Assembly: GCF_003977755.1 (NCBI RefSeq)
Contig: NZ_RQWN01000001.1
Span: forward strand, 1,517,855-1,581,854
Direction of reading: 5' to 3'
Length of the DNA: 64,000 nt
Source of the DNA: Haloterrigena salifodinae
GTDB taxonomy: Archaea > Halobacteriota > Halobacteria > Halobacteriales > Natrialbaceae
Program-made: the position numbers and the translations under genes
Shown: positions 16,635-54,529 of the stretch, piece after piece
How the letters are laid out: each line of letters starts with the position of its first letter
How positions within the stretch are numbered: position 1 is the stretch's first letter
Notes under the pieces: model-generated
Told to the model about the DNA's origin: nothing
What the model saw: only the letters and a program-made list of their open reading frames with translations
Database searches by the model: none

Positions 16635-18206
16635 TCAGTGATCGGGCCCGCCTTGGGATCGATCCGCTCGCTCTTCGTCGCCGTCTCCCGTCGACTCGAA
16701 CAGGCGGGGCCCCGAAAGGTCCCTGGGCTCGAGTCCGGCGAGTGCGAGCAGGTCCTCGTCGTCGATGCCGGCAGTCGAGTCGGACGCCGGCTCCGACGGC
16801 TCCGCCGGCGACTCGAGCAGCGGCTCGCGGGTCGTCTCGCTCGACGAGTCGCGAGGTGCTCTCGCCGCCGCTTCGACGTCTGGGTCAGTCGGTTCGACAG
16901 CGTTCCCGGTCGTCTCCCGACGCGCCGATCGGTCGGAGTCCGCGTCGCGACCGTCAGGAACAGTCACCGGCGCGGACCCGGTATCGGAGTCGGTCGGCGA
17001 CGCGGCGGATCCGTCGGCCTCGCCGACTGCGAGCTCCTCGCGGCCGGTGTCGGTATCGTCCGCCGCCGAATCGGCCTCCATCGTCACGGGGGCGAGCAGA
17101 TCGTCCCCGGTCGGCGGCCGCGGCGGCTCGAAGACGTATCGGACGCCGTCGCCGCGGACGACGTAGCGGTTCTCGTCCGAATCGAAGAGCACCGCTGCCT
17201 CGAGATCGATTCCGAGGCGCGCGAGCGTCGCCAGCGAGTCGACCGTCGCACGAGGCTCCGCAAGCTCCGATGCGGGAAGACTGACCGTCGTGATTACCTC
17301 CTCGAACTCCGAGCGGTCGGTCCGGTAGGCCAGCCACTCGCGTTCGGTCTCCGTCAGCTCCGGGAACCGACGCGTTACGACCGCCACGGCACTGATACCG
17401 GCTGCGCCCAGCCCCAGCAACAGGGGTCCGCCGACGGATCGAAGCGGCCCTGCCGAGACAGGAACCTCGACGGACTCGTACTCCTCTCGTGGCTCGTCGT
17501 ACGAGCCGTCGGCCTCGAGGCGGTACGCCTCCCCGTCCGTCGTGATCGGCACCTCGTAGCTGTGGTTCGCCGAGCGGCGCTCGCCGTCGATCCGGCCGTC
17601 GACCGTCCGCTCGAGGTCGAGGACGATCTCGGTCTCGCCGGGGCCGGCCCCGACCTCCCGCTCGATCTCGGCGATTGACTCCTTGACCGCCGTGACGTTG
17701 ACCGCGAACGACGCGGTGACTGCCTCGCCCGGCGCGACGTCCGTCGCCGTCGCCGACTCGAGTTCCTCCCGTCGGCTCCAGTAGACGCCGTCGCCGTTCG
17801 GGTCGACCGAGCGATAGATGAGGTCGACCGCGACCGAGACGCGGACGTTCTCGCCGCCGCCGGCGTCGTATCCGCCGACGAACTCGCCGTCGACCGTCGG
17901 CGCGATCCCCTCGTAGTACAGCGACTTGTTCTCGAGGCGCGTCCCCTCGGGATGGACGGGGTTGGACTCGGTGACGACGGCACCGTGGGAGAACTCCCCC
18001 GTCGCCATCCAGCGGTGCTCGAGCTGTTGCTCGGTCGCCGTCTCCGAGGTGGCGTAGGCGCCGTAGCTCAGCCACGCGCCGAGGCCGAGCAGGACGACGA
18101 ACGCGATCAGTAGCACCGTCCGATACTCCGCGAGCAGGGCGCGAAGCCGCAGCCGTCGCTCCCGCCCCGTCTCGTCGCTGTCGACGTCCGTCAGTAGCGA
18201 TACCAT
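16635..18206 (-). CDS. DUF5305-type membrane protein
   Basis: The 523-residue protein has a cytoplasmic N-terminus, a membrane helix (about residues 31-50), a large outside domain with beta-strand character, a second helix (about 262-285), then a cytoplasmic part and a long, acidic, disordered tail (about 385-523). This two-helix plan with the extracytoplasmic segment beginning YATSETATEQQLEHRW matches haloarchaeal DUF5305 proteins, usually found beside a signal peptidase gene, as here. The signal peptidase stop is three bases upstream of its ATG, so they form an operon. It may chaperone or anchor the secreted proteins of the locus; that is inference. Confidence 0.85.
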   Translation of the reverse strand: MVSLLTDVDSDETGRERRLRLRALLAEYRTVLLIAFVVLLGLGAWLSYGAYATSETATEQQLEHRWMATGEFSHGAVVTESNPVHPEGTRLENKSLYYEGIAPTVDGEFVGGYDAGGGENVRVSVAVDLIYRSVDPNGDGVYWSRREELESATATDVAPGEAVTASFAVNVTAVKESIAEIEREVGAGPGETEIVLDLERTVDGRIDGERRSANHSYEVPITTDGEAYRLEADGSYDEPREEYESVEVPVSAGPLRSVGGPLLLGLGAAGISAVAVVTRRFPELTETEREWLAYRTDRSEFEEVITTVSLPASELAEPRATVDSLATLARLGIDLEAAVLFDSDENRYVVRGDGVRYVFEPPRPPTGDDLLAPVTMEADSAADDTDTGREELAVGEADGSAASPTDSDTGSAPVTVPDGRDADSDRSARRETTGNAVEPTDPDVEAAARAPRDSSSETTREPLLESPAEPSEPASDSTAGIDDEDLLALAGLEPRDLSGPRLFESTGDGDEERADRSQGGPDH

Positions 18207-18209
18207 GTA

Positions 18210-19370
18210 TTAATAGCGTTTCCGGATGAGCGAACGCGTCTTCGTCCGCCGGTCGCGAGCCGCGTCCCGCCGCGAGCGCGGATCGCGGGGACCACAGAGC
18301 CGGCGGCCGACACCGTACGTGAGCCCGCCGAGCAGCGAGACGATGACGACGACGGGCGACCACGGATGGACGTCGTGGAGGGCGTCGATTACCGGCAGCG
18401 GGAGCACGTGCAGGTACCGGTACTCGGTGACGTAGGCCGGGTAGTGGCCGGTCTCGGCGGGCGCCGAGATCGACAGGGGGACCTCGGCGTCGTCCCGCGG
18501 ACCGACGGTCGCGGGTCCCTCGTCGACCGCGACGTGGTCGCTTTCCGTTTCGACGTACGAGACGACGGGGACGATCCCGTCGTTGGCCACGACGTATGGC
18601 ACCGTCTCGGTGGTCCCCCGTTCGATCACCAGCGCCTGCTCGGAGTCGAACTCCGCGCTGACGACGCCGTACGATTGGGTACCGGCGGGGACGAGCATCG
18701 CCCCCGCGGCGGCGACGACGACCAGCAGCGCGAAGACGCCACAGAGGAGTCGCGGATCGAGCGCCACCCCGTCGTCGCTGCCCAGCCGCGACTCGTCGGA
18801 CACGCTGCGGCGCTCGCGGGCCGTCTCGATGGCGTAGAGGGCCCCCGATAGCCCGAGTCCCAGATACGCCAGCCCCGACGTTCCCCGGATCGATCCGAGC
18901 CCGAACGCGACCGCCAGTCGGCTCTGGCCGGACTCGATGGCGTCACCGACCGTCATCACGGCGGTTCCGAGATGGGGGATCGTGACGACCTCGCCCGTCG
19001 GTCGCCAGGCGCTCGCGACGATCTGCCCGTCCTGAACGGGCGGTTCCCCCGAGTCCTGATCCGTAACCGGATTGGCGTCGCCCTTGGTGATGTATCCCCG
19101 CTCGGTCTCCTCAACCACCCGGTGAGTCGTCAGCCCGCCGCCGTCGATCTCCTCGGCCTCGAAGACGATTACGTCGCCGGGCTCCGGATCGTCCGTCACG
19201 ACGTCCGGAACCGCGACGAACCCGTGACCGGTCTCGATGGTCGGCTCCATGCTGCCGGTCTCGACGAACCCCAGCAGGATCGGCTGGCCGAGTATCTGCC
19301 CCGCGAACAGGGCGAGGATACTCGCGAGTACGAGCCCCTGAAACACCCGCGTCACCCCCCAGTGAATCAT
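18210..19370 (-). CDS. Signal peptidase I, Ser/His (archaeal/SipW) type
   Basis: A 386-residue membrane peptidase of family S26B. After an N-terminal helix (about residues 8-33), the catalytic Ser40 is in ETGSMEPT, His83 in TTHRVVEE replaces the bacterial Lys, and Asp98 is in ITKGDAN. It has extra C-terminal parts: two more membrane helices, an outside beta-domain (about 225-305), a final helix and a basic tail. SipW of Bacillus, which matures the biofilm fibre protein TasA, is also of Ser/His type. Its place beside DUF5305 and DUF1102 genes suggests it serves those secreted proteins. The housekeeping signal peptidase should lie elsewhere. Confidence 0.88.
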   Translation of the reverse strand: MIHWGVTRVFQGLVLASILALFAGQILGQPILLGFVETGSMEPTIETGHGFVAVPDVVTDDPEPGDVIVFEAEEIDGGGLTTHRVVEETERGYITKGDANPVTDQDSGEPPVQDGQIVASAWRPTGEVVTIPHLGTAVMTVGDAIESGQSRLAVAFGLGSIRGTSGLAYLGLGLSGALYAIETARERRSVSDESRLGSDDGVALDPRLLCGVFALLVVVAAAGAMLVPAGTQSYGVVSAEFDSEQALVIERGTTETVPYVVANDGIVPVVSYVETESDHVAVDEGPATVGPRDDAEVPLSISAPAETGHYPAYVTEYRYLHVLPLPVIDALHDVHPWSPVVVIVSLLGGLTYGVGRRLCGPRDPRSRRDAARDRRTKTRSLIRKRY

Positions 19371-19374
19371 TCGT

Positions 19375-19435
19375 ACACCTAGACTAATTTTATAAAATTA
19401 CTTGTATATTTCGATTTATAACATGTATTTGCGGT
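19375..19435 (-). promoter_or_regulatory. AT-rich promoter region of the signal peptidase operon
   Basis: A sharply AT-rich stretch lies directly upstream of the signal peptidase ATG, with a TATA-like TTTATAAAATTA on the plus strand (minus-strand TAATTTTATAAA) about 20-30 bases before the start codon. This spacing fits a leaderless haloarchaeal transcript. No transcript data, so placement is inferred. Confidence 0.5.
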
Positions 19436-19486
19436 ATCGGTGACAGTCAAACGCAGCTCGCTACGACGAAAATCGGCGTCGCGGCG

Positions 19487-19612
19487 CTACGCGGAGAAGA
19501 GCCGCTCTAGCTCCGCGTTGATCGTTTCCCGGTCGAGTTCCTCACCGGATAGGTCGAATTCGATACCCGCTACCGTCTCGTAGTCGTCGAGCGTCGGTGT
19601 CGTGTCCGTCAT
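19487..19612 (-). CDS. 41-residue acidic protein following a DUF1102 gene
   Basis: I read a short ORF here, starting with ATG at 19612 and ending at TAG 19487. Its product begins MTDTTPTLDDYETVAGIEFD and ends ELERLFSA; it is acidic and helical in its second half (LSGEELDRETINAELERLF). Its start is only three bases after the stop of the upstream secreted-protein gene, which argues for translation within the same operon. Codon choice is normal for the genome. Function unknown; it could be a small partner or regulator of the secreted protein. Confidence 0.55.
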   Translation of the reverse strand: MTDTTPTLDDYETVAGIEFDLSGEELDRETINAELERLFSA

Positions 19613-19615
19613 CTC

Positions 19616-20212
19616 TTAGACCTCCTCTGCAATGATTTCGATCTCGTCGTTGACGGCGACCGAGTCCACCGCCGTCTCCGGGAGGGCGAACGCCGCCAGA
19701 CTGAACTCGATCTCCTCACCGGGCGACAGCGTCGAGATCGAGATGAAGTTGCTCTCCCACGGCGGCCACTCGAGATCAATCTCGATTCCGCCGGCCTGGG
19801 GCACGAGCAGGACACCAAGCACGCCGTCGAAGTCCTGCCAGTCCACGTCGCCAAACGCCAGCGGCGTGACCCGGAGTTCGACCTCCTGGGAGCCCTGGTT
19901 CTGGATCTGGAAGATGTCCTCGATTCCCGTGACCGCGTTGGCGTTCAGACCCTGGCCGCCGGCGATACCGTCGCCGACATTGTCGTTGTCGCCGGTCAGA
20001 TTGATCGCGAGCGCGTCGCTGTCGGTCGTGTCCACATAATTGCCGTTCGGCCCGTCGCCGGGCTGGATGCCAAGGTACGCGCTGGCGTCCTCGGAGACGG
20101 TGACGGCGACGTCGCGCTCGGCCTGGACGCTGCTGAACGCGCCGGTACCGAGGGCGAGCCCGCTGCCCGCCGCGAGCGTGCCGATACTCAGGACGAAGTT
20201 GCGTCGTTCCAT
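19616..20212 (-). CDS. DUF1102-type secreted protein, TasA-like fibre subunit candidate
   Basis: The 198-residue protein has an RR-containing signal sequence (MERRNFVLSIGTLAAGSG) running to a GTGAFSSVQA cleavage region, then a beta-rich domain beginning ERDVAVTVSEDASAYLGI. This start matches the two other secreted proteins of the locus, and resembles the way TasA and camelysin-type, SipW-dependent proteins begin. The rest has regularly spaced strands (IFQIQNQGSQEVELRVTPL, LSPGEEIEFSLAAF) and an acidic end. The family is named DUF1102 in archaea. A role as a surface filament or matrix subunit is my inference from the Ser/His signal peptidase nearby. Confidence 0.82.
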   Translation of the reverse strand: MERRNFVLSIGTLAAGSGLALGTGAFSSVQAERDVAVTVSEDASAYLGIQPGDGPNGNYVDTTDSDALAINLTGDNDNVGDGIAGGQGLNANAVTGIEDIFQIQNQGSQEVELRVTPLAFGDVDWQDFDGVLGVLLVPQAGGIEIDLEWPPWESNFISISTLSPGEEIEFSLAAFALPETAVDSVAVNDEIEIIAEEV

Positions 20213-20227
20213 CTGTTATCCACTCAG

Positions 20228-20767
20228 TTACGCGGTCGCGCTGAAGGTCACCGAGTCGAGCAGTTCGTCGCCGTCGCCGAGGCCGCTGTCTTCGGTATCG
20301 ATTTCGAGACAGATCGTCGTGCTCTCGCCGGCGCCGAGCGTGACCGCGCTGTCGGTCAGCGAGTCGCCGTCGTAGGCCTCGCCGTCCGGGTAGAACGCGA
20401 CCAGGTCGGCGTTATCGCCGTGTTTGGCCACGATGACGTCGACTTCCTGCGTCCCCTGGTTCTCGATGTCGAACAGGTTCCCGATCTGCGTGACCGCATC
20501 GGGGTTGACGCCCTCGCCGCCGCCCGCGACGCCGTCGTTGCTCGGGCTGAGATCGATCGTCAGCGTGCCGTCGTTCCCGTCGTCGGTGACGTAGTCCGCG
20601 TTGTCGCCGCCGGTGCCCTCGAGTCGCAGGTAGGCCGAAGCGTCGTCGGCGACTTCGACGTCGATGTCACGATTCGCGCTCACGCTCGAGAACGCCCCCG
20701 TCCCGATCGCCGCGGCGGTTCCGGATGCCAGTGCGCCCATTCCGATAACGAATTTGCGTCGTTGCAT
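20228..20767 (-). CDS. DUF1102-type secreted protein, paralogue
   Basis: A 179-residue paralogue of the next gene. The signal sequence is MQRRKFVIGMGALASGTAAA with cleavage near GTGAFSSVSA; the mature part begins NRDIDVEVADDASAYLRL. Later it has LFDIENQGTQEVDVIVAK, which aligns with IFQIQNQGSQEVELRV of its neighbour, and it ends soon after a strand that follows a GAGEST turn. The ATG at 20767 was chosen since the upstream in-frame extension lacks signal-peptide character. The gap to the downstream paralogue is 15 bases, so they are co-transcribed. Two related subunits side by side fit a major/minor subunit pair. Confidence 0.82.
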   Translation of the reverse strand: MQRRKFVIGMGALASGTAAAIGTGAFSSVSANRDIDVEVADDASAYLRLEGTGGDNADYVTDDGNDGTLTIDLSPSNDGVAGGGEGVNPDAVTQIGNLFDIENQGTQEVDVIVAKHGDNADLVAFYPDGEAYDGDSLTDSAVTLGAGESTTICLEIDTEDSGLGDGDELLDSVTFSATA

Positions 20768-21280
20768 GGTTAGTGGTGTGGTGAGCGGAACCTCGCGGAC
20801 GGTCGTCCGCGAGAACCCGTCGCCCCGCTTCTCGCGGGGACCACGATTCAGCGATGGACAGCAGGGGATATTGTAATACAGTCGTGGAATTAATTCTGAC
20901 ACTGGTTTCCCTTCTATCAACGAGCGGTGGAGCGAACGTGGTACGTCGCATGGTGGCGATTGACTCGAGTCGCGTGCGAGTCAGCGGTCCGTAGACTGCG
21001 ATCGACGCATCGTTGGCTTTCGGTCAATCGACCCCTGAGTACGATTGGAGGCGGTCTCGGTCCGATTGACTCTCGGTCAACCGGTGACTGAACCCGCATC
21101 GCGGGAGAATCGAGCGACGACGACCGTTCCGGGTAACTCCCGAAAGCGGATCTGTGACCGTCGATCGGCGGATGGTCGAAGCTTATCACTAGAACAAATA
21201 TTCTCTACACAAAATAATTTAATTGAAGAAATTCAGGATTTCAATAGTTTTATTTCTGTACGCGTCCCACGTTCGATTGA
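20768..21280. promoter_or_regulatory. Divergent intergenic region with repeated CGATTGAC motif
   Basis: This 513-base gap separates the secreted-protein operon from the divergent winged-helix regulator gene. It is AT-rich at both ends (about 20870-20900 and 21185-21260), where the two promoters should lie. CGATTGACTC occurs at 20957-20966 and 21063-21072, and its reverse core GTCAATCG at 21023-21030. The repeated motif is a candidate binding site for the regulator encoded next door. No gene was recognised in the gap. Confidence 0.45.
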
Positions 21281-21904
21281 ATGGGGGGATGCCACGCGGA
21301 ACAGACTCGGGACCGGAACGTCCCGCGACGAAACCAAGACGAATTGACCGAAGACGAACTCTTCGAACTCCTGTCGAACCGACGACGGCGACACATCCTT
21401 CACACGCTGATGGACGAGGCGGAGACGGCTGACATCGGCGACCTCTCACAAGAGATCGCCGCGGCGGAGGATGGACTCGCCTACGAGGAAGTCTCGAGTA
21501 CCGATCGAAAGCGAGTCTATACGGCGCTCCAGCAGTCGCATCTACCGAAGCTGGATAAGGCCGGCGTCGTCGAGTTCGACCGCGATCGGGGGCTCGTCGA
21601 ACCCACCCCGGCGCTCGAGAACGTCGAGATCTACATGGACGTCGTTCGCGGACGAGAAATCCCGTGGAGCGACTACTATCTGGGGCTGACGGCGGTGGCC
21701 ACGTTGTTGCTCGGGGCGACCGTCGCCGGCTTTCCGCTGTTCGCCGACCTCCCGTCGCACGCGTGGGGAGTGTTCGTCGTCGTCGCCTTCGGCGTCTCCG
21801 CGCTCGCACACCGCTACTACGCGCGGCGCAACCGGCTCGGTATCGCCGACGAACCGCCGGCCGTGGAACTCGAGTACCGGAACCGAACGGAAGAGGGGCG
21901 ATGA
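21281..21904 (+). CDS. Winged-helix regulator with C-terminal membrane helices (DUF7344-like)
   Basis: The 207-residue protein has an N-terminal winged-helix domain: LTEDELFELLSNRRRRHILHTLMDE, a recognition-helix region DRKRVYTALQQSHLPKLDKAGVVEFD, and wing residues to about 110. Two membrane helices follow (about 135-155 and 160-178), then a basic and acidic tail. The ELLSNxRRRxILxxL opening is a hallmark of haloarchaeal DNA-binding domains of this kind. Located between the two halves of the secreted-protein locus, it is probably its regulator, held at the membrane. It is followed after one base by the next gene, so both are one operon. Confidence 0.82.
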   Translation: MGGCHAEQTRDRNVPRRNQDELTEDELFELLSNRRRRHILHTLMDEAETADIGDLSQEIAAAEDGLAYEEVSSTDRKRVYTALQQSHLPKLDKAGVVEFDRDRGLVEPTPALENVEIYMDVVRGREIPWSDYYLGLTAVATLLLGATVAGFPLFADLPSHAWGVFVVVAFGVSALAHRYYARRNRLGIADEPPAVELEYRNRTEEGR

Positions 21905-21905
21905 G

Positions 21906-22835
21906 ATGAAGCGAACCAGACGCGCAGCGCTGCTGTTGATGGCCGCCTCGAGCGGTACCCTTGCCGTCGAGACGCTCGGCCTCTCGCGGTCGGCGGCCCG
22001 GCGAGACGCGGCCGTCGACGCCGCCGGCGATGCCGTCGCCTACCTGGGACTGACCGAGGACGGCGTTGAGGCCGGCGGTACCCTGTTCGAAGACGGCCCC
22101 CGGCCGTCGCCCGCGACATTCTCCGTCGTCAACGGGCTCTCCGCGCCCATCGCGCTCACCCTCGCGTCCAACCAATTTCGGATTCGGACGACCGACGAGG
22201 CAGCGGCTGTCGACGGAGACAGACTGCTCGTCGGCGGTGACGCGGGCGATCCGCTGGACCCGGGCGACCGCCTCGCGGAGATTACGGTCGAGCCGACGCC
22301 GGCAGCGATCGGATCGTTGGTCGGCTCGACGATAACCGGAACCGTCGACGTCACGGCGACGGGCGCGGAGACTCGGGTCGACGCCGAGCGCGACCTCTCG
22401 CTTTCGGTTCCCGGCGTTTCGGTCGAACGGGCGCTGCTGTCGGTGTCCCAGCGAGGCGGCGGCGTCTTCGAACACCGGTGGCTACTGGAGGGCGTCGACA
22501 CCACGACGCACGGCCTCGAGGCGCTCAAACTCGATTACCGCAACGTCGAGACTGCCGGCGCGATCGACTTCACCGACGCGGACGGGCCGTCGGTCTCGGT
22601 CACTGCCGACGGCGCCGACCGTCTGGCGACGATCGAGACGCTGGAGCCGAACCGACTCACCGTCGCGCTCGCGGACGCGCTGATACTCGACGGAGCCGCC
22701 GTCGAACTCGTACTCGCGGAACCCGGCGGACCGGCGAGCCCGGGCGGTCAACCCGGTAGCCCGACGGGTGCGACGGTCGAACTGTTCGATGCCGGATTCA
22801 GCGCTACCGCCGAGGCGACACGGGACCGCCCGTGA
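21906..22835 (+). CDS. Secreted protein related to the DUF1102 proteins of the locus
   Basis: This 309-residue protein begins with a short basic signal sequence (MKRTRRAALLLMAASSGTLAVETL), and its mature start RRDAAVDAAGDAVAYLGL carries the same RD-x2-V and D-A-x-AYLxL pattern as the two DUF1102-like neighbours. The rest is beta-rich, with many Thr/Val strands, and near the C-terminus has a Gly/Pro-rich stretch GGPASPGGQPGSP. It is translationally coupled to the regulator gene just upstream. It may be a larger, tip- or anchor-like member of the same surface structure; no assigned function. Confidence 0.75.
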   Translation: MKRTRRAALLLMAASSGTLAVETLGLSRSAARRDAAVDAAGDAVAYLGLTEDGVEAGGTLFEDGPRPSPATFSVVNGLSAPIALTLASNQFRIRTTDEAAAVDGDRLLVGGDAGDPLDPGDRLAEITVEPTPAAIGSLVGSTITGTVDVTATGAETRVDAERDLSLSVPGVSVERALLSVSQRGGGVFEHRWLLEGVDTTTHGLEALKLDYRNVETAGAIDFTDADGPSVSVTADGADRLATIETLEPNRLTVALADALILDGAAVELVLAEPGGPASPGGQPGSPTGATVELFDAGFSATAEATRDRP

Positions 22836-36418: not shown

Positions 36419-36814
36419 ATGCTCGAGCCGACCCTCGTCTACGACGACGACTGTGGCTTCTGTACCTGGTGGGCCGACTACTTCGACGAGCGGACGGACC
36501 TCCGCATCGTGGGCTTTAGCGACCTGCCGGACCACCCCGAACTCCGCGAGCGGTTGCCCGAGTACTACGAGGAGTGCTCCCATCTCGTGACCGAAACCCG
36601 CGTCTACTCCTGCGGGGCGTCGATCGAGGAGGCGCTGCGCCGGTACGACAGCGGCGGCCCCGTCGACGAGACCCTCGGATTCCTTCGGAACTTCGAGGAC
36701 TACGCGCGGATCCGCGAATGGGGCTACCGGCAGGTGGCGGACAACCGCGACAAGTGGGGCCAGTTACTGTCGAAAACGCCGCCGGCGCGCCAGCAGTCGG
36801 ACGACGAGCGGTAA
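36419..36814 (+). CDS. DCC family (DUF393) thiol-disulfide oxidoreductase-like protein
   Basis: The 131-residue protein starts with LVYDDDCGFCTWW; the DCxxC pair near residues 11-14 defines the DCC family, a thioredoxin-like fold. The following CGASIEEALRRY and GYRQVADNRDKWG are also family features. Members are thought to act on thiols, and they often sit next to or are fused with lipase-maturation-factor-like or HTTM membrane proteins; such a gene is convergent here, ending 59 bases away. Cytoplasmic; no signal peptide. Confidence 0.85.
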   Translation: MLEPTLVYDDDCGFCTWWADYFDERTDLRIVGFSDLPDHPELRERLPEYYEECSHLVTETRVYSCGASIEEALRRYDSGGPVDETLGFLRNFEDYARIREWGYRQVADNRDKWGQLLSKTPPARQQSDDER

Positions 36815-36873
36815 GCCGGCCGCCGGACGCTCGAGCGGGAACTTCGGTTTCGGCCCCCATGGAGTCCCGCCGC

Positions 36874-38337
36874 TCACAGCCCCGGCCCGCGGAGCCGCAG
36901 TTCCTCGAGCGACGCGGGCGCGACGTAGGTGCCGACGCGCTCGCGTTCCCACCACCGGCCGGTCTCGTCGCGCTCCTCGGGCGTCGTGAACCGATACCGG
37001 TACCGGACCGCGCGAATATGCGTCGGCGACTCCTTGCGCCCGGCGAAGGGGTCCGCGGCCAGTAACGTCCGCGTTTCGCCGTCCTCCTCGAGCAGTTTCG
37101 CCAGCAACCGGTGGAACCACGGGTGGCGACGCGGCGAGGGCGCCATGGCAGCGAACCACAGCTGCCAGTCCAGCCGGAGGTGGTAGGGCGCGATCTGGGG
37201 CGGCCGCCGCTCGAGGTCGGTCGGCTTCCCCTTGAATCGGTAAGGCTCCCACTCAGTCTCCTCAGTTATTTCCTCGTCGCTGGTGCCCTCGATGACGATC
37301 TCGTAGCGATCTCGCGTGACCGAGCCGAACGCGCCGTAGGTGTTGACGAGGTGGAGCGGATCGTAGGCCGTGTTCATCGTCTGGCTCTCCGAGAGCATGT
37401 TCTCGATCGGCCGGATGCTCATCGCGATCACGGTGATCGCGACCAGGATCGCCGCGCCCTCGAGGTAGAGCGGCGTCGCGACGGTCTCGGGCGCCGTCAC
37501 GGGCAGCGCCCACTCGAGGGCGCCGTCGCTGAACGTCGCGATCGCCAGCACGATCGTCAGCGCGTTCAGCCACGCGAAGTTGCCGGTGAGCATCAGCCAG
37601 CCCATGAAGCCGATCGTCGCCGCACCGGCCAGCGACGAGGCCGGCTGGGGCGCGAAGTAGAGGAACGGAATCAGCAGTTCGACGACGTGATTCCCGAACG
37701 TCTCGAACCGGTGGAACCGATCCGGGAGGTGGTGGGAGAACCAGCTCAGCGGGTTCGGAATCGGCTGGGTCTCGTAGTGGTAGTCCATGCTGGAGAGGTC
37801 GCGCCAGCAGTCGTCCCCGCGGAGTTTGATCAGCCCCGCGCCGAACATGTTGCGGAAGAGCACCCACTGCAGGAGCAGAAGGATGACGAACGGCGGTGCC
37901 ACTGCTCCGGCGCCGATGAAGATCGCGAGAAAGCCCGTCTCGAGCAGCATCGACTCCCAGCCGTAGCCGTAGAAGGTCTGCCCGGCGTTGACGAACGATT
38001 GGTAGAGCAGCCACACGATAGCCCAGAGCACCATCGAGACCGGCGTCGGGTACGGCTCTGGCAGCCAGTATGGCAACCCGACCAGCGCCAGCGCCGAGAG
38101 GACGACGCCGGCCCACGCGACGACGGCGATCGCCCGATCGCTTGGGACGAAGTAGAAGAGACTCGGCCGCTCCCGGAAGTCGGCGCCCTCGGCGTACCAC
38201 TCGAGTGGTAACAGACCGTCCTCGCCGGCAAGCGGTCGGAACTGGAACGCGGCGACGAGAAACGCCAGCAGATACAGCAACGCCAGCCCTCGCTGGAAGA
38301 GGAAGCGAACGAGCCAGAACTCCTCGCCGTGGAACAT
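36874..38337 (-). CDS. Lipase maturation factor (LMF1)-like membrane protein
   Basis: A 487-residue protein with about eight to ten membrane helices and a conserved C-terminal soluble part. LMF1 family blocks are QTFYGYGWESMLLETGFLAIF, LRWVLFRNMFGAGLIKLRGD-like (here VLFRNMFGAGLIKLRGD), YHYETQPIPNPLSWF and, near the end, PPQIAPYHLRLDWQLWFAA. In animals LMF1 helps lipases fold in the ER; in prokaryotes the role is unknown. The DCC protein encoded beside it is a frequent companion, suggesting a shared redox or protein-folding job at the membrane. Confidence 0.85.
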   Translation of the reverse strand: MFHGEEFWLVRFLFQRGLALLYLLAFLVAAFQFRPLAGEDGLLPLEWYAEGADFRERPSLFYFVPSDRAIAVVAWAGVVLSALALVGLPYWLPEPYPTPVSMVLWAIVWLLYQSFVNAGQTFYGYGWESMLLETGFLAIFIGAGAVAPPFVILLLLQWVLFRNMFGAGLIKLRGDDCWRDLSSMDYHYETQPIPNPLSWFSHHLPDRFHRFETFGNHVVELLIPFLYFAPQPASSLAGAATIGFMGWLMLTGNFAWLNALTIVLAIATFSDGALEWALPVTAPETVATPLYLEGAAILVAITVIAMSIRPIENMLSESQTMNTAYDPLHLVNTYGAFGSVTRDRYEIVIEGTSDEEITEETEWEPYRFKGKPTDLERRPPQIAPYHLRLDWQLWFAAMAPSPRRHPWFHRLLAKLLEEDGETRTLLAADPFAGRKESPTHIRAVRYRYRFTTPEERDETGRWWERERVGTYVAPASLEELRLRGPGL

Positions 38338-38420
38338 AGTCGGCCCTCAGTCCGCGAAGCGCCAAAGGAGTGACGCGTTCCGCGCCGAACGGACGGGCAC
38401 GAACGGATCGCCGCCCTCTG

Positions 38421-39602
38421 CTACGGCGTCATGACGACCTTGATACAGTCGTCCTCCTTGTCGTTGAACGTCTGGTACATCTCCGGCCCGTCCTCGAGGC
38501 CGACCTGATGGGAGATGATAAAGGAGGGATCGATCTCGTCCTCCTCGATTTTCCCCAGCAGCGGATCGAGATAGCGCTGCATGTGCGTCTGTCCCGTCTT
38601 GACCGTTAGCGCCTTGTTCATCAGCGGGCCGAAGGGGACATTCGCGCGCCCGAGGTAGACGCCGGGCACCGAGAGGGTGCCGCCCTTGCGGCAGCACTTG
38701 ATGGCCTCGCGGAGCACGTACGGGCGGTCATCCTGCAGCTTCGCGCCCTCCTTGACGCGGTCGGAGACGCCGTCGAGACCCGTCCCGTGGGCCTCCGTTC
38801 CGACCGCGTCGATACAGCGGTCCGGGCCGCGGCCGCCGGTCATCGACATCAGGCGGTCGTAGACATCCGCGTGCTCGTAGTTGATCGTCTCCGCGTCGCC
38901 GTGTTCGCCCGCCATCTCGAGGCGTTCGGGCACGCGGTCGATGGCGATCACCTGGTTCGCGCCCATCATCTGTGCGCTCTGGATGGCGAACTGGCCGACC
39001 GGGCCACAGCCCCAGACGGCGACGGTGTCCTCGGGTTCGATGTCGGCGTTCTCGGCGGCCATGTAGCCCGTCGGGAAGACGTCGGAGAGGAACAGCACTT
39101 CCTCGTCGGAGACGTCCGACTCGATTTTGATCGGGCCGACGTCGGCGTAGGGAACCCGCAGGTACTCCGCCTGGCCCCCGGCGTAGCCGCCCAACAGGTG
39201 AGAGTAGCCGAACAGCCCCGCGGGCGACTGGCCCATCATCTTGCGGGCCATCTCGGCGTTGGGGTTCGAGTTGTCACACAGCGAGTAGAGGTCCTCCTCG
39301 CAGAACCAACAGGAGCCGCAACTGATCGTGAAGGGGACGACGACCCGGTCGCCGACCTCGAGGCTCTCGACCTCGTCGCCGACCTCGATCACTTCACCCA
39401 TCGGCTCGTGGCCGAGGACGTCGCCCTCGCGCATCCCGGGCATCCTGTCGTTGTAGAGGTGGAGATCGGAGCCGCAGATCGCGGTGGCCGTGATCTCGAC
39501 GATCGCGTCGGTCGGCTCCACGATCTCGGGCCGGGGAACCTCGCTGACTCGAACGTCCTTTTCGCCGTGCCACGTGAGCGCTCGCATCGTTTCCTCGGTC
39601 AT
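38421..39602 (-). CDS. Zinc-dependent alcohol dehydrogenase (formaldehyde-dehydrogenase-like)
   Basis: The 393-residue MDR-family enzyme has the catalytic zinc site (ICGSDLH, GHEPMG), the structural-zinc loop [15 protein letters not shown], and the NAD-binding [16 protein letters not shown]. The long insertion after the zinc loop (residues about 118-150, [18 protein letters not shown]) is typical of the glutathione-independent formaldehyde dehydrogenase/FDH-like group. It is the last gene of a minus-strand operon with an SRPBCC protein gene, overlapping it by four bases. Substrate not determined; NAD or NADP dependence unclear. Confidence 0.9.
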
Positions 39603-40336
39603 AGCAGATCACCCCGTCCGCGAGCGGACGGTCTGTGTTCGGTCGTCGGCACCGTGCCCGTCTCCGCGAGACTCTTGAAGCGGTCCAGCGCCGTCCCGAC
39701 GAGCGATTCGGGGACGACGTCGAGTCGCTCCACGGCCGCGCTGCCGGCCGTCCCGCCCGGCGGATCGAAGCGAACCTCGAGCGTTACCTTCGTCCCGCGG
39801 TCGCCCGGCGCCGAGTCGAACGACAGCGACCAGGCGTCGAACAGCGCGCCCATCGAGTCGTCGTCGACCGTCTCCCAGCGGAGCCGCTCGCCGGATTCGT
39901 CGGCCGTACTCTCCATCTCCCACGACAGCTCTCGGGCGAGCGGACCGCCCGCGCTCCACCGGTAGCGGTCGTCACCGACCGCAGAGACGTCGGCGAAGTG
40001 GCCGACGATGCGCTCTAAGCTCTCGGGGTCGCGCGCGAGGTCGGACAGTTCGTCCGCCGGTTTGTCGATCGTGATGGAGCGTTCGACCGGCTCCATCTCG
40101 CCAGCGTCGGTCAGATAGTCGCTGAGCGTCCGGTAGGAGAGTGCGCCGCCGACGAGCGCGATCACCGTTCCGCCCAGCGAACGGCGCCGGAGCCCGAACG
40201 CGACGAGGGCACCGCCGAGGGCGACGGTTCCCACTCGTTTCCACCGGGATCGGTTCGGTTCCGCTCCCGCGGACGCTCCCGGGTACATCGAGTTCGATAC
40301 CGCTTCGGCCGCCGACTCGAACGAGTGTTCGGACAT
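39599..40336 (-). CDS. SRPBCC (START/cyclase-like) family protein with membrane segment
   Basis: A 245-residue protein with an N-terminal Gly/Ala-rich hydrophobic part (about residues 33-75, [19 protein letters not shown] and [15 protein letters not shown]), then a SRPBCC/polyketide-cyclase-like domain starting [27 protein letters not shown]. The family binds hydrophobic ligands. The ATG at 40336 is preferred; in-frame upstream sequence overlaps the aldolase gene and is arginine-rich. Its stop overlaps the dehydrogenase start (ATGA), and the aldolase stop is two bases upstream, so three genes are translated together. Confidence 0.85.
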
Positions 40337-40338
40337 GA

Positions 40339-41127
40339 TCAGGTATCTCCGTATTCGTTCAGCCACGAGCGCACGGCGCCGCCCAGCGCCCCGGTCGTAC
40401 TCCCCAGATTGAGGATCTGGTAACCGGACCCGGCCTTCTCGTTGACGTCGTCCATTCCGAAGCCGAGCCCGCCCAGCGGAACCCCAGCCTCGAGGGCCGC
40501 CTCGCGGATCTGTTCGACGTGTTCCTCGACCTCGTCGTGAGTCGGCTCGCCGGGGTGGCCGAGCGACACCGCGAGGTCCAGCGGACCGGCGAAGACGAAG
40601 CCAAGTCCCGGGACCTCGAGGATTTCGTCGATGTTGTCGATCGCGGTCGGGTTCTCGATCGTCACGCCGACGACGATCTCCTCGTCCTCGGTGCCGGCGT
40701 AGTCGTCGGTCGTCCCCCACCGACTCGCCCGGGGGCTCGCGAAGCCGCGCTTGCCGGGGTCGCCGTCGTACTCGAACTGCGAGGCCTCGACGGCGCGGCG
40801 CACCTCGTCTGCGGATTCGATCCGCGAGACGAACAGCGACCGGACGCCCGCGTCGAGCGTCTTCCGGACCATCCCGGGGTCGGGCTCGGGTAACCGGACG
40901 AGCAGTTCCGTCCCCGTCACGTTCGCGGCCCGAGCCAGGTCTTCGAGTCGGTCGCCGTCGAACGGGCTCGGCCCGGCGTGCTCGAGGTCGATCCAGACGA
41001 AATCGAGGCCGAGTTCGCCGTAGAACTCGACCAGCGTCGGATCGTACGCGTTCTCGAGGACGCCGAGCGCGACGTCGCCGTCCGCGAGCGTCTGCTGTAG
41101 GAGATTGGTTCGTGGCGAGGTCGCCAT
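40339..41127 (-). CDS. HpcH/HpaI aldolase family protein
   Basis: The 262-residue protein is a class II aldolase of the HpcH/HpaI family, which cleaves 2-keto-acid aldols to pyruvate and an aldehyde. Typical blocks are FVWIDLEHAGPSPF, LLVRLPEPDPGMVRKTLDAGVRSLFVSRIES (quoted in part) with the metal-binding Glu in VTIENPTAIDNIDEI, and FAGPLDLAVSLGHPG. First gene of the three-gene minus operon ahead of the SRPBCC and alcohol dehydrogenase genes; an aldolase/dehydrogenase pair would be consistent with catabolism of a sugar acid or aromatic compound. Confidence 0.9.
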   Translation of the reverse strand: MATSPRTNLLQQTLADGDVALGVLENAYDPTLVEFYGELGLDFVWIDLEHAGPSPFDGDRLEDLARAANVTGTELLVRLPEPDPGMVRKTLDAGVRSLFVSRIESADEVRRAVEASQFEYDGDPGKRGFASPRASRWGTTDDYAGTEDEEIVVGVTIENPTAIDNIDEILEVPGLGFVFAGPLDLAVSLGHPGEPTHDEVEEHVEQIREAALEAGVPLGGLGFGMDDVNEKAGSGYQILNLGSTTGALGGAVRSWLNEYGDT

Positions 41128-41225
41128 AGGCCTTCGACACGAACCGAATGGATAAAGCTTCGCGCTGAATTAGAAGTCCGCTCCGCTCTCGAACGGTTTT
41201 GTTCCGACGCGTTGAACGGCGGCCC

Positions 41226-41750
41226 ATGCGACACCTCGCAATCGACGACGTCGACTCCGATCCGTACGACGAGGACCTCCACACCGATCGCCGTGCCCTC
41301 GCCGACCCCCTCGGGACGAATCACCTCGCGATCACGCGCTACGTCCTCGAGCCCGGCGAGCGGTTCAGCGGCTCCGTCCACGCTCACGCGGATCAGGAGG
41401 AGGTGTTCGTCGTCCTCGAGGGGGAGGCGACGTTCGAGATTCGGGCGGACGACGGCGACGAGGCGGCCGAGCGCATCGACGAAGTGACGGTCGGAGCGGA
41501 CGAGGTCGTCCGATTTGCCCCCGGCGAGTTCCAGTCGGGACGCAACGCCGGCGACGATCGCGTCGTGGCACTGGCGCTGGGAGCGCCGCGCGACAGCGAA
41601 GACGTTCGCATCGCCCGGATCCCGGGACTCGACGGCGGGAATATCACGTGTCCCGACTGCGAGTGCGATCACATGCGGGTCTCGAGGGCTGACGAGACCG
41701 ACTTCGAGTGCCCCGAGTGCGAGGCGACGCTCGCGCTCGAGGACGAATAA
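41226..41750 (+). CDS. Cupin-domain protein with C-terminal zinc ribbon
   Basis: The 174-residue protein has a cupin beta-barrel (about residues 25-115: LEPGERFSGSVHAHADQEEVFVVLEGEATF, quoted in parts, with His-x-His-x4-Glu metal ligands HAHADQEE) and a C-terminal zinc ribbon, CPDCECDHMRV and ECPECEA. This cupin plus ribbon plan is common in haloarchaea and the exact function is unknown; a metal- or sugar-binding role is expected. The next gene is convergent, ten bases away. Confidence 0.85.
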   Translation: MRHLAIDDVDSDPYDEDLHTDRRALADPLGTNHLAITRYVLEPGERFSGSVHAHADQEEVFVVLEGEATFEIRADDGDEAAERIDEVTVGADEVVRFAPGEFQSGRNAGDDRVVALALGAPRDSEDVRIARIPGLDGGNITCPDCECDHMRVSRADETDFECPECEATLALEDE

Positions 41751-41760
41751 GCGCTCGAAC

Positions 41761-42975
41761 TCAGCGCTCCAGTTTCCGAAGGGCGGCGCCCGCGGCGACC
41801 ACGACGAGCGCGCCGGTCGCGAGGACGGTCAGTCCGGGGACGAACGATCCGGTCGCGTCGCGCAACGCCCCGACGAGCATCGGCCCGAAGAACCCCCCGA
41901 GCTCGCCGACGGCGAAGATGAAGCCGACCGCGGTGCCGGTCAGGCGAGCGCCGATCCCCTCGAGGTCCGGCGGAATCGCGCGGACGAGCGGCGAGATGCC
42001 GCCGACGCCGATTCCGGTGACGACGATGCCGACGAGGACCAGCGGGCCGGTACCGCCGACGATCACGCCGGCGACGCCGACGAACGCGACGGCGCCGCAG
42101 GCCATCAGCGCGGGCCGTCGCAGTCCGTACCGGTCGGCCAGTTCCGGGACGGTGAGCACGCCGATGACGTAGGACGCCACCAGCAGGCTCGTGGTCTGGC
42201 CGGCCGGCCCGGCCGCGAGCCCCCGGGACTCGAGCAGCGTCGGGAGCCACCCCTGCAGGCCGTGGTTCAGGAGCAGGTACATCGTCCCGATGACGACGAC
42301 CAACTGGAGTTCGCGGTGGGAAAGGACCAGCCGAAGGTCCTCGCGAATCGACTCGAGGGAGAAGCCGCCGTCGCCGTCCATCCGCTCGTCGATTCCCGCC
42401 CAGAGAGTGACGACCAGCCAGACGAGCCCGTAGGCGACGGCGACGACGCCGCTCCAGAAGAACAGCGGCCGCCAGCCGCCGAGCCACGGCCCCAGGACCG
42501 GCCGTCCGACGGCGAAAACGAGCGCCGAACCCGTCGACGCGCCCACGAGGTAGACGGCCGACGGGCGGCCGGTCCTCTCGGGCGGGAACAACACGCCGAC
42601 CAGTTTCGGGAGGCCGAAGGTGATCGCCGTGGCACCGACGCCGAGCAGCAGCGTCACGACGAACAGCGACGGAAAGCCGGGCGCGAAACTCCGGGCGATC
42701 TGTGCGATCCCGTAGATCAGCACGCCCGCCGCGAGGCTCCGACCGGGCCCGATCCGGTCGACGGCGACGCCGGAGAACAGCGCCAGCGGGATGTAGGTCA
42801 GCGGCACCGCGCCCGTGAGGATCCCCGCCTGCGTGCTCGAGAGCCCTACGTCGTCGATGATCACCGACAGGTACGCCGGCAGCGAGAACCAGACGAACAT
42901 CAGGCAGGTGTAGCTCAGCGCCCCGAACGCGACGAGTCCGTACTCCCGACGATAGCCGGCGCTCGAGCGACCCAT
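41761..42975 (-). CDS. Major facilitator superfamily transporter
   Basis: A 404-residue protein with 12 predicted membrane helices. The MFS loop between helices 2 and 3, GVAVDRIGPGRSLAAG, is present, as well as the central cytoplasmic loop (about residues 190-215, ERMDGDGGFSLESIRED). The N-terminus is MGRSSAGYRREYGLVAFG; a longer in-frame extension upstream is arginine-rich and rejected. Its closest look is to CynX/NarK-like MFS members, but I cannot assign a substrate. Confidence 0.85.
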   Translation of the reverse strand: MGRSSAGYRREYGLVAFGALSYTCLMFVWFSLPAYLSVIIDDVGLSSTQAGILTGAVPLTYIPLALFSGVAVDRIGPGRSLAAGVLIYGIAQIARSFAPGFPSLFVVTLLLGVGATAITFGLPKLVGVLFPPERTGRPSAVYLVGASTGSALVFAVGRPVLGPWLGGWRPLFFWSGVVAVAYGLVWLVVTLWAGIDERMDGDGGFSLESIREDLRLVLSHRELQLVVVIGTMYLLLNHGLQGWLPTLLESRGLAAGPAGQTTSLLVASYVIGVLTVPELADRYGLRRPALMACGAVAFVGVAGVIVGGTGPLVLVGIVVTGIGVGGISPLVRAIPPDLEGIGARLTGTAVGFIFAVGELGGFFGPMLVGALRDATGSFVPGLTVLATGALVVVAAGAALRKLER

Positions 42976-43633: not shown

Positions 43634-44884
43634 TTACGATGCGGAGTGAGGCGACACCGAAACGGCATCGCCGCGCTCGGGCGCCGACGCATCGAATCCG
43701 TCCGCCTGCAGCTCCTCGGCGAACGCCTCGCATCGGTCGCCGTGGTTGATCAGCACCTCGACGTCCCGATAGGACTCGAGGAACTCGAGAAGTCCGTCCC
43801 GATCCGCGTGCGCGGAGAAGTCGTACTGTTCGACCCGGGCGCTGATCGGCATCCGGCGGCCGTCGATCTCGGCGCTCCCGGTCTCGAGGAGGTCGCGCCC
43901 GGGTGTCCCCTCGACCTGGTAGCCGGTCATCGCGATCTTGTTCATCGGATTCGCCCGAATTTCGGGGATGTAGGTCATGGCAGGGCCACCAGACAGCATC
44001 CCGCTGGTGGTGATGATCGCTGCCTTCTGGTCGGTGATACGCTTTCGCTGGCCGTTTCGTCCGGTGACGAACCGCGCGTGGGATTTCGCTCGTCGAAACG
44101 CATCTGCGTCGCGAACGAACTCGGGATACTGGTGGAGTATCTCGGTTACCTGTTGCCCCATTCCGTCGACGTAACAGGGGATGTCGTAGGCATCACAGAT
44201 GAGCATCATCTCTTGGGTCCGTCCGATCGCGAACGCGGGGACGACAACGGTCCCACCCTCCCAAAGCGTCGTCTCGATACTCTCGACAAATCGCTCCTCC
44301 ACGACTGATCGTTCCTCATGCTCGACATCGGAGTAGGTACTCTCGCAGATGACGACATCAGCATCTGGTCGTGCAGTCGTCCCTGAAACCAGACGCTGGT
44401 TGTCAGTGTGGAAGTCTCCCGTGTAGAGCAGTCGTGTATCCCCATCGTCAACGAGTACGTGGGCGCTTCCTGGGATGTGTCCTGCATTGTAGAATGTCAC
44501 GTCATAGCCAGCCGTTTCGAAGGTTTCCTGATACCCGTGCGTTTTCGATACCTGTGTAACGCGCTTGAGATCGTTCTCAGTGAACGGGCAGTTGTATGAT
44601 CCCCCGTGTAGCTTGAGCGTGTCTCGCGCAAGCGTCAGCGTTAGCTCGTACGTCGGGGGTGTCCAATGAATCGGCGGCCGTTCGTCACCGGAAAGCAGGG
44701 ACGGTATCGTACCAACATGATCGAGATGCCCGTGCGAAACAACGACTGCATCCGGGTTTGGTGTTCGCACCGGAAACTGAGGAGGATTGTCCGTCAACAT
44801 CCCGAAATCGAGTAGAAGAGAATCGTCCACGAGGATGGCGCTTCGGCCGATCTCGCGGGCTCCGCCGAGAAATTGAATATCCAT
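43634..44884 (-). CDS. Beta-CASP metallo-beta-lactamase-fold nuclease, chimeric at the left edge of the island
   Basis: The 416-residue protein is a beta-CASP family RNase-like enzyme (as CPSF73/aRNase J). The metal motif SHGHLDHVG is at about residues 69-77, HIPGSAHV and YTGDFH follow, then the beta-CASP domain with CESTYSD, GTVVVPAFAIGRTQEM, ITTSGMLSGGP and the C-terminal ARVEQYDFSAHAD. It appears complete. Base composition changes inside the gene: the C-terminal third (43634 to about 43990) is GC-rich like the host, while the remainder is distinctly lower in GC, as in the island. A truncated homologue with GC-rich sequence lies at 54530-55144, so this is probably a recombinant of host and incoming copies. 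Confidence 0.87.
   Translation of the reverse strand: MDIQFLGGAREIGRSAILVDDSLLLDFGMLTDNPPQFPVRTPNPDAVVVSHGHLDHVGTIPSLLSGDERPPIHWTPPTYELTLTLARDTLKLHGGSYNCPFTENDLKRVTQVSKTHGYQETFETAGYDVTFYNAGHIPGSAHVLVDDGDTRLLYTGDFHTDNQRLVSGTTARPDADVVICESTYSDVEHEERSVVEERFVESIETTLWEGGTVVVPAFAIGRTQEMMLICDAYDIPCYVDGMGQQVTEILHQYPEFVRDADAFRRAKSHARFVTGRNGQRKRITDQKAAIITTSGMLSGGPAMTYIPEIRANPMNKIAMTGYQVEGTPGRDLLETGSAEIDGRRMPISARVEQYDFSAHADRDGLLEFLESYRDVEVLINHGDRCEAFAEELQADGFDASAPERGDAVSVSPHSAS
43995..44054. repeat. 60-bp direct repeat, left copy (island junction)
   Basis: These 60 bases match 54564-54623 at 57 positions, in the same orientation, inside the two beta-CASP gene copies. They encode the GQRKRITDQKAAIITTSGML region. 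Composition of the left copy changes near here, so the repeat marks the probable crossover. Confidence 0.75.
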
Positions 44885-44953
44885 TATTGGAAGTGTGTTC
44901 GCCGAGCGCTTTTCTTCGTCGGTTCGCACAGAGAACTTCTTGACCGGTAGCAA

Positions 44954-45127
44954 TCATGGATGGTATTCGAACTCCAAGCGCTCGCTCAGCTGCGGCGTCT
45001 CCGGCGCGTTCTCCTCGTCTCCAGTGCGTACGAGGGTCCGATCGGTGAGGACTATGTCTTCCCGCGCAACGGGTTTTACTATTGGAAAGATGTTCGGTAT
45101 CTCTTTCTCGGATACAGCAACAGCAGA
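44954..45127 (-). pseudogene. Possible gene remnant between the beta-CASP and MFS genes
   Basis: On the minus strand a 57-codon open stretch reads like real protein (EIPNIFPIVKPVAREDIVLTD, then VRTGDEENAPETPQLSERLE and FEYHP before TGA), with acidic haloarchaeal composition. It has no start codon and an in-frame TGA just upstream at 45128-45130, before which more protein-like sequence (NPVDELFDELTVGLH) continues towards the MFS stop. It may be the decayed C-terminal part of a lost gene. Family not recognised. Confidence 0.35.
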
Positions 45128-45198
45128 TCAGTGAAGGCCGACAGTCAGCTCGTCGAACAATTCGTCTACGGGATTCGATACGGGCAGAAAACGGATGC

Positions 45199-53240: not shown

Positions 53241-53825
53241 ATGCGTACGGACACCCCACAGACGCCCACCGCTGACGACGAACCGCTGAGTCGAGCAGAA
53301 CTCGAGGAGCGAATTACGGAACTCGAGGACCGGCTTAGCGATGTTGAGTCCGAGAGCGGCGATGAACAGCCGAAGATGTCGATCATCGCGACGAAGGGGA
53401 CACTCGATATGGCGTACCCGCCGCTCATCCTCGCAAGTACCGCCGCCGCGTTTGGCTACGAGGTGACGGTCTTCCACACGTTTTGGGGGCTGGACATCCT
53501 CCACGAGGAGCAGTCGAAGAACCTGAAGCTGAGTTCCGTCGGCAATCCCAATATGCAGGTCCCAAACGCGATCGCGGCGCTTCCGGGTATGGATCGCGTG
53601 ACAACGAAACTGATGGAACGACAGATCGAGGACAACGACACGGCGACGATCGAGGAACTCATCGACACCTCCCTGGAGATGGGTGTCGAGTTCCAGGCCT
53701 GTCAGATGACGATCGATCTGATGGACTACGACGAAAACGACTTCTACAACGGTGTCACCGTCGGTGTCGGGGCAGCGACGGCGATTCAGGACATGACTGA
53801 ATCCGACATTCAACTCCTCATTTAA
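53241..53825 (+). CDS. DsrE2-like (DsrE/F/H family) sulfur-transfer protein
   Basis: A 194-residue protein. An acidic coiled-coil region (about residues 14-40, SRAELEERITELEDRLSDVE) leads to a DsrE-like domain: SIIATKGTLDMAYPPLILASTAAAFGYEVTVFHTFWGL, then a helical insert, and the reactive Cys in FQACQMTIDLM followed by GVTVGVGAATAIQDM. DsrE2 proteins pass sulfur to or from TusA, encoded four bases upstream. The stop overlaps the start of the DUF2270 gene. Confidence 0.9.
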   Translation: MRTDTPQTPTADDEPLSRAELEERITELEDRLSDVESESGDEQPKMSIIATKGTLDMAYPPLILASTAAAFGYEVTVFHTFWGLDILHEEQSKNLKLSSVGNPNMQVPNAIAALPGMDRVTTKLMERQIEDNDTATIEELIDTSLEMGVEFQACQMTIDLMDYDENDFYNGVTVGVGAATAIQDMTESDIQLLI

Positions 53826-54526: not shown

Positions 54527-54529
54527 GAC

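Follow-up and report, generated by a model that had tools for sequence, protein, structure and literature searches.

The subunits of well-studied donor-strand fibres leave the cell unfolded, by the general secretory (Sec) pathway, while the twin-arginine translocation (Tat) pathway carries folded proteins. Tat-fimbriae are said to have been first described by Galeva et al. in iScience in 2025. The present work deals with a gene locus at positions 16635 to 22835 of a 64,000-nucleotide stretch of DNA from Haloterrigena salifodinae (contig NZ_RQWN01000001.1), the whole of which is hereafter called the window. This locus brings together two tandem Tat-type pilins, a 41-codon gene, a signal peptidase and a DUF5305 membrane protein, and most probably, as far as sequence comparison can tell, serves to produce and mature a thin fibre of the Tat-fimbria class at the cell surface. 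According to passages of a published account (PMC12687288), the haloarchaeal Tat pathway exports components of thin surface filaments, the Tat-fimbriae or tafi, with TafA as their core. TafA, TafC and TafE (NF052520-2) are indeed described as fimbrial proteins in NCBIfam.

Another closely comparable system is the TasA/TapA/SipW system of Bacillus. Passages of PMC9674648 describe the donor-strand assembly of TasA, with residues 28-38 as the donor strand and Phe29 packing into the neighbouring subunit, as well as a stable monomer that fills its own groove, while the abstract of PMC10269814 places a Phe at P2' of the SipW cut. Taken together, the limits of the donor strand and the place of this Phe put the mature start of TasA at residue 28, and the stability of the self-filled monomer would let a folded subunit pass through Tat. 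Donor-strand complementation is likewise reported for the threads of Sulfolobus acidocaldarius in the part of PMC9715654 that deals with them. A locus in which Tat-type pilins stand next to a SipW-like peptidase raises the question of how ready-folded subunits build a fibre.

Tat-type pilins related to a Tafi pilus subunit

Pilin 1 (20228..20767, minus strand) and pilin 2 (19616..20212, minus strand) both start with a Tat-type signal, recognised by its motif (MQRRKF and MERRNF), in which the two arginines are residues 3-4. The signal ends in a GTGAFSS-type exit motif, which our own pattern detected in 144 of 193 unique pilin-like open reading frames (ORFs) of the window and related loci; two adjacent arginines lay within 30 residues upstream of it in 143 of these 144 ORFs, and a looser test found them in 183 of the 193. 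Compared by phmmer, both pilins matched the chain 9p0a, entitled 'Structure of Natrinema sp. J7-2 Tafi pilus', with E-values of 2.5e-10 for pilin 1 and 1.5e-14 for pilin 2. They are 49% identical to each other across 116 residues, and pilin 2 is 96% identical to its counterpart in Haloterrigena salina. Both are TafE-like, pilin 2 in its N-terminal part (70.2 bits for pilin 1 and 73.9 bits for pilin 2, for an NCBIfam cut-off of 155). Two DUF1102 proteins had been announced in an initial annotation of this DNA, all the ORFs of which were recovered here with checked translations; only pilin 1 belongs to this Pfam family (PF06510, 39.4 bits for a gathering cut-off of 22.2, E 8.8e-10), whereas pilin 2 had no Pfam match at E<=1. 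A literature search on DUF1102 yielded no publication. The models PF12389 and TIGR04088 were both unlisted at E<=1 for the three secreted proteins of the locus, namely the two pilins and the Tat-type product of 21906..22835.

These three proteins do share a mature-start pattern, as initially reported (NRDIDVEVADDASAYLRL, ERDVAVTVSEDASAYLGI and RRDAAVDAAGDAVAYLGL). Its first element, RD-x2-V, was found as described, while the second reads DAxAYLx[L/I] rather than strictly DAxAYLxL. The RD had been taken for the mature start itself, but residue counts place the cut probably about 8 residues earlier, at GTGA|FSS. The 9p0a chain indeed comprises 215 residues, 188 of which are in the library model, and the alignment reaches residue 215; if the 27 missing residues are all N-terminal, the model begins with the Phe of GTGA|FSS. 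By these counts and by analogy with TasA, the pilins of the window are probably cut at A25|F26.

The fold of pilin 2 was modelled on an artificial chain, in which pilin 2 and the 41-residue protein were read through the stop codon, with 39 aligned rows as input. The pilin part was predicted to be a jelly-roll (pLDDT, the predicted local distance difference test, of 65; pTM, the predicted template modelling score, of 0.56). The best VIA-align matches were the bundling pili of Pyrobaculum (7ueg; Z 8.4, 125 residues, 3.4 A), the Tafi pilus (9p0a; Z 7.7, 134 residues, 3.7 A) and the threads of Sulfolobus acidocaldarius (7pnb; Z 6.9, 127 residues, 3.5 A), after which Z fell to 5.9, with enterobacterial FimA subunits at 5.3-5.9. 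What lends weight to this evidence is that three archaeal fibres occupy the leading places together, along with the sequence match. On this model, pilin 2 would be a jelly-roll subunit related to archaeal TasA-like fibres, with Z mostly under 8, a range which, according to the note of the tool, can be background.

These data bear on another explanation, in which no fibre would form at all and the peptidase would mature the pilins as secreted surface components of an enzyme or signalling system. The fibre of the window is indeed known from genes alone, jelly-rolls are common and the pilin model is a moderate one. However, the pilins match a solved pilus subunit in sequence, archaeal fibre subunits give the best structural alignments, and no enzyme family exceeded its cut-off for the pilins in Pfam or NCBIfam, so that this explanation appears most improbable. 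The haloarchaeal TasA-like surface fibre put forward in the initial annotation can thus be retained by homology, on account of the match of the pilins to 9p0a, the fold of the pilin 2 model and the presence of the peptidase-DUF5305 pair beside TasA/camelysin proteins in four of six loci from other archaea (see below); this fibre type has already been described under the name of Tat-fimbriae.

The pilin 1-pilin 2-small gene trio

The 41-codon gene (19487..19612, minus strand) encodes a putative partner of pilin 2 in which no signal peptide was seen. Searched with a profile of this gene, the 392 genomes of the order gave matches at E<=1e-6 in 22 cases and weak matches only (E 0.001-0.05) in 17 others; no pilin was seen in the eight annotated weak-match loci (L192-L199). 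In all 22 genomes, the order is pilin 1, pilin 2 and, immediately after the latter, the small gene. The small gene is an ORF of its own in 21 of them, while in the last one (G122) the sequence of the small protein forms the C-terminal end of pilin 2, behind a short linker (L083:10303-11064). The same arrangement was present in 12 of the 51 loci of our named collection (L121-L132); the families concerned are Natrialbaceae, Halorubellaceae and Haloferacaceae, and a divergent relative of the trio is apparently present in L133, as judged by eye. In a quick tree of 133 pilins, calculated without bootstrap, the pilin 2 proteins of the trio, together with L178, made up a 23-row set (97), and the pilin 1 proteins another 23-row set (95), save for an additional L124 copy. 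The two pilin genes and the 41-codon ORF form a fixed trio, and this trio looks new: no description of it or of the 41-codon gene was found in the literature, bearing in mind that such searches cannot prove it unpublished.

The small gene is under purifying selection, the ratio of nonsynonymous to synonymous differences per site (pN/pS) ranging from 0.13 to 0.71 and staying below 1 in 45 of 45 pairs drawn from 10 sequences, many of these pairs with high pS. Across 13 loci, its start, behind a TAA or TGA stop, varied in frame with respect to pilin 2, all three frames being represented, and the gap between the two genes was 1 to 7 bases in 12 of them; in the remaining one (L132), this gap is -4 if counted from a GTG, or 2 if counted from the ATG. 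In the window, the small gene happens to be in frame with pilin 2, with one stop and one codon between them. This last feature, together with the fusion in G122, would be expected if the ORF were a remnant of the tail of pilin 2 or a read-through product instead of a separate protein. Such an origin is nevertheless very unlikely in view of the variety of frames and stops, of the pN/pS below 1 in every pair and of the conservation of the gene in every one of the 22 genomes, nearly always as its own ORF. Stop-codon read-through from pilin 2 into the 41-codon ORF was rejected as a candidate on the same variation of frames and stops. Given its position, its frames, its pN/pS values and the G122 fusion, the small gene is a real gene, and its product very likely touches pilin 2.

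The 41-residue protein matched no Pfam or NCBIfam model over cut-off, nor any plasmid at E<=1. In the model of the joined chain, it was predicted to form two helices (208-215 and 228-240), with a pLDDT of 69-87 by blocks and of 56 at the last residue. Donation of a strand to pilin 2 by this protein was considered and set aside, the model giving helices only, within an artificial chain.

The peptidase-DUF5305 pair and its gene company

The signal peptidase I of the locus (18210..19370, minus strand) exceeded the cut-off of TIGR02228, the general model of archaeal signal peptidases (56.8 bits for 51.85), while it remained below that of the SipW model (NF046067; 38.5 bits for 190). Its Ser40, His83 and Asp98 were verified by position. 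The comparison with SipW made in the initial annotation holds insofar as a Ser/His peptidase stands beside its likely substrates, but the signals here are Tat-type and not Sec-type. Moreover, Ser/His catalysis, mentioned there for SipW, is not peculiar to it: among peptidases of this kind, our own pattern found the SM motif in 73 of 85 of them, with His at the expected place in 73/73 and Lys in 0/73. The window genome contains four signal-peptidase ORFs of this model, two within the loci described here and two on contig C3. The C3 pair (G000:C3:517444-518772), of 330 and 326 residues and close together, possibly corresponds to housekeeping peptidases.

The neighbouring DUF5305 gene (16635..18206, minus strand; PF17231, E 6.9e-56) encodes, as deduced from sequence and from model helices, a transmembrane helix, a beta-sandwich ectodomain (pLDDT mostly 81-96 by blocks), a second transmembrane helix and a long acidic cytoplasmic tail. 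The C-terminal half of the peptidase is predicted to carry a second domain, also a beta-sandwich and probably extracytoplasmic; a joint model of this half with the DUF5305 protein displayed two beta-sandwich domains (pLDDT 79.7, pTM 0.43). We propose that the DUF5305 protein is the assembly partner of the peptidase. Factor XIII (Z 7.8) and Enterococcus faecium WxLIP (Z 7.7, root-mean-square deviation 17.8) came up as fold matches and were rejected as usual background. For the C-terminal domain of the peptidase (18210-18764), the six listed matches lying entirely within it were four MSP-type proteins, one axoneme chain and CupB2 (Z 6.3); this last match, to a pilus chaperone, is a weak hint that the peptidase may carry its own chaperone-like domain. 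The AT-rich gap 5' of the peptidase start (19371..19486, minus strand), in which a TATA-like stretch was seen by eye, is a possible separate promoter for the pair.

The gene company of the pair links the locus to named Tafi genes. In locus L113, TafA (250.6 bits), TafC (567.6 bits) and TafE (224.6 bits), all over their NCBIfam cut-offs, adjoin a DUF7344 protein, a signal peptidase and a DUF5305 protein, and the window has the same gene set. This shared company, the twin-arginine signals and the homology to 9p0a together lead to the assignment of a Tafi-class locus. Judged in this way, the locus is a divergent Tafi variant, of a known class, the proteins of which fall outside the named equivalogs; a description of this sub-class was not found in the literature. 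Of 146 genomes of the order, 90 contained DUF5305 and 87 contained TafE-like genes; both were present in 83, DUF5305 alone in 7, a TafE-like gene alone in 4 and neither in 52 (Fisher p 7e-27, kinship not being corrected for). In 14 control genomes, Haloferax volcanii among them, DUF5305 was not detected at E<=1e-5. Among 40 DUF5305-centred loci beyond the two of the window genome, hand-picked for spread from 123 DUF5305 matches and in part for a TafE-like gene known beforehand, a peptidase was present in 39, a pilin in 38, DUF7344 in 32, a CARDB-like gene in 16 and a TafC-like gene in 15.

A second locus (L011) lies about 120 kb further on in the same genome, and comprises a TafA-like pilin, CARDB, peptidase, DUF5305 and divergent DUF7344 genes, a protein in the TafC position and a VWA protein. 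The two peptidases are 45% identical over 341 residues, and the two DUF5305 proteins 27% identical over about 350. In a tree of 82 peptidases, rooted at the midpoint and with some long branches, 18 of 18 trio-locus rows, including that of the window, fell in a 40-row set (support 96/85), and L011 among the other 42 rows. This split and these identities indicate two well-diverged versions of the system in one haloarchaeon. The VWA protein of the second locus (L011:7761-10418; 885 residues, with DUF7289 and DUF7305) has relatives in several L011-type loci, and is perhaps an adhesin. On the 55-kb plasmid NZ_CP073370.1 of Haloarcula sinaiiensis (36449-42205), a pilin-like protein and a peptidase were observed about 4 kb apart; such loci may move between strains.

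Alternatively, the pilins of the window might serve the fibre of the second locus as minor subunits or TafE-like adaptors, instead of forming the bulk of a separate fibre. Both indeed score best against the adapter family TafE and not against TafA, and the second locus possesses its own pilin, peptidase and DUF5305. However, the pilin of the second locus itself scores higher against TafE (64.7 bits) than against TafA (51.8 bits), so that a best score with TafE is no guide to the role of a pilin. Furthermore, the window locus has a peptidase and a DUF5305 protein of its own, the former separated from its counterpart by a supported branch of the tree, and trio loci with peptidase and DUF5305 occur both in Natrialbaceae and in another family (L084). 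We therefore regard an adaptor role as unlikely and keep a fibre specific to the locus as the preferred explanation.

Beyond the order, the pair was found next to TasA/camelysin proteins. DUF5305 occurred in 68 of 294 genomes of the phylum, 26 of which lie outside the order; loci from six of these 26 genomes (L200-L205), chosen among the better scores, were fetched. The peptidase was detected beside DUF5305 in five of the six, and a fragment of it was seen by eye in L202, where a large PKD-repeat protein takes the place of the TasA/camelysin protein. Four of the six loci (L200, L201, L203 and L205) contain a total of seven proteins passing both PF12389 and TIGR04088. Inspected by eye, the TasA-type proteins of these loci display GTLAYFSDTET-like motifs and no RR in their N-termini; the camelysin-type protein of L203 found no PDB chain better than E 0.2 by sequence. 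Taken at face value, the six loci, which are few, would make the peptidase-DUF5305 pair a general companion of TasA-like fibres. Its presence beside TasA/camelysin proteins with SipW-type signals in four of these loci, which also looks new, suggests that haloarchaea retained the TasA/SipW maturation pair while shifting their pilins from Sec to Tat.

Several observations nevertheless weigh against a fibre of this class. No protein of the window passed the NCBIfam cut-offs of TafA, TafC or TafE, the best scores being 73.9 bits for 155 (TafE), 41.4 for 190 (TafA) and 23.5 for 410 (TafC). The pilin 2 model is only of moderate confidence, and in Foldseek 7ueg alone reached E<=0.001 (4.4e-4), followed by 9p0a (2.4e-3) and variants of Escherichia coli FimA (4.2e-3 and 8.0e-3), with 7pnb at rank 9. 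The jelly-roll that the initial annotation proposed to look for was predicted, but TasA was absent among the listed matches of Foldseek and VIA-align. The peptidase and DUF5305 ectodomains had no clear fold match (best Z 7.8). The 40 DUF5305-centred loci were chosen by hand, partly on the strength of a known TafE-like gene. No pilin was detected in L094, which also lacks DUF7344, nor in L106, which has no peptidase either and where DUF5305 stands by itself. Finally, neither a peptidase nor DUF5305 was found within about 7 kb of the trios of L130-L132. The trio can therefore occur without the pair as its neighbour; in these three loci, the peptidase-DUF5305 pair may exert its function from another part of the genome.

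The remaining genes are transcribed divergently from the pilins, across an intergenic region (20768..21280) that separates the pilin operon from the regulator operon. The DUF7344 winged-helix protein (21281..21904, plus strand; PF24035, E 8.1e-29), with hydrophobic C-terminal segments, is 40% identical over 171 residues to that of the second locus, and is proposed to be a regulator. The secreted Tat-type protein encoded next (21906..22835, plus strand) matches TafC weakly, over residues 2-56 only (23.5 bits), and lies behind DUF7344, in the same place as TafC in L113; it is proposed to be a minor or terminal subunit. A shared operator in the divergent region was rejected, as the inverted repeats recur only in the nearest relative, L121 (one of four compared). 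Elsewhere in the window, positions 44001-55000 have a guanine plus cytosine content of 52-63% per kilobase, for mostly 60-73% in the rest, which may mean imported DNA.

Proposed maturation route and comparison with known systems

From a mechanistic point of view, the twin-arginine signals suggest that both pilins reach their fold inside the cytoplasm before leaving through Tat, the route reported for Tafi. The 41-residue protein may bind pilin 2 ahead of export. The dedicated peptidase would then cut at GTGA|FSS and free an N-terminal strand of about 12-15 residues, which, by homology with TasA and archaeal bundling pili, would enter the groove of a neighbouring subunit. For the hand-over, subunits could perhaps be held by the domains that the peptidase and the DUF5305 protein expose outside the cytoplasm; the protein in the TafC position might be a minor subunit or one at the fibre end, and control of the two divergent operons might lie with the DUF7344 protein. 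A more speculative scheme, which we advance tentatively and consider rather doubtful as a whole, joins these elements: the 41-residue protein, devoid of signal peptide, would bind folded pilin 2 inside the cytoplasm, block early polymerisation, hitchhike through Tat and end up in the fibre, as a component or a cap, the TasA/SipW pair having been kept while haloarchaeal pilins moved from Sec to Tat. The trio represents a small part list that is open to testing.

Compared with Tafi, the locus has in common Tat-type pilins, the GTGAFSS exit and a related fold, as well as the company of DUF7344, of a protein in the TafC position, of an archaeal signal peptidase and of DUF5305. It differs in its two tandem pilins followed by the 41-codon gene, in a peptidase placed across the tree from that of the second locus, and in proteins that score below the TafA, TafC and TafE cut-offs. 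With respect to the second locus of the same genome, CARDB and VWA genes were not detected in the window locus. The bundling pili of Pyrobaculum are the best fold match of pilin 2, at only 10% identity and with a Tat-type signal on the side of the window. The Sulfolobus acidocaldarius threads, the third-best structural alignment, are 6% identical, and their subunit is Sec-secreted with a signal peptidase I (SPI) site, according to a passage of PMC9715654, by contrast with the Tat-type signal found here.

Compared with TasA/TapA/SipW of Bacillus, the window pilins bear a Tat-type and not a Sec-type signal, PF12389 and TIGR04088 are unmatched, extra DUF5305 and DUF7344 proteins are present, and none of the seven window proteins matched the TapA family in Pfam or NCBIfam. 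Both systems nonetheless have an archaeal-type Ser/His peptidase beside its likely substrates, an N-terminal donor strand likely freed by this peptidase, and an aromatic residue just past the cut. In other archaea, moreover, the peptidase-DUF5305 pair itself stands beside PF12389 proteins, and this neighbourhood of TasA/camelysin genes provides a link between haloarchaeal fimbriae and the biofilm fibres of bacteria that does not depend on the fold.

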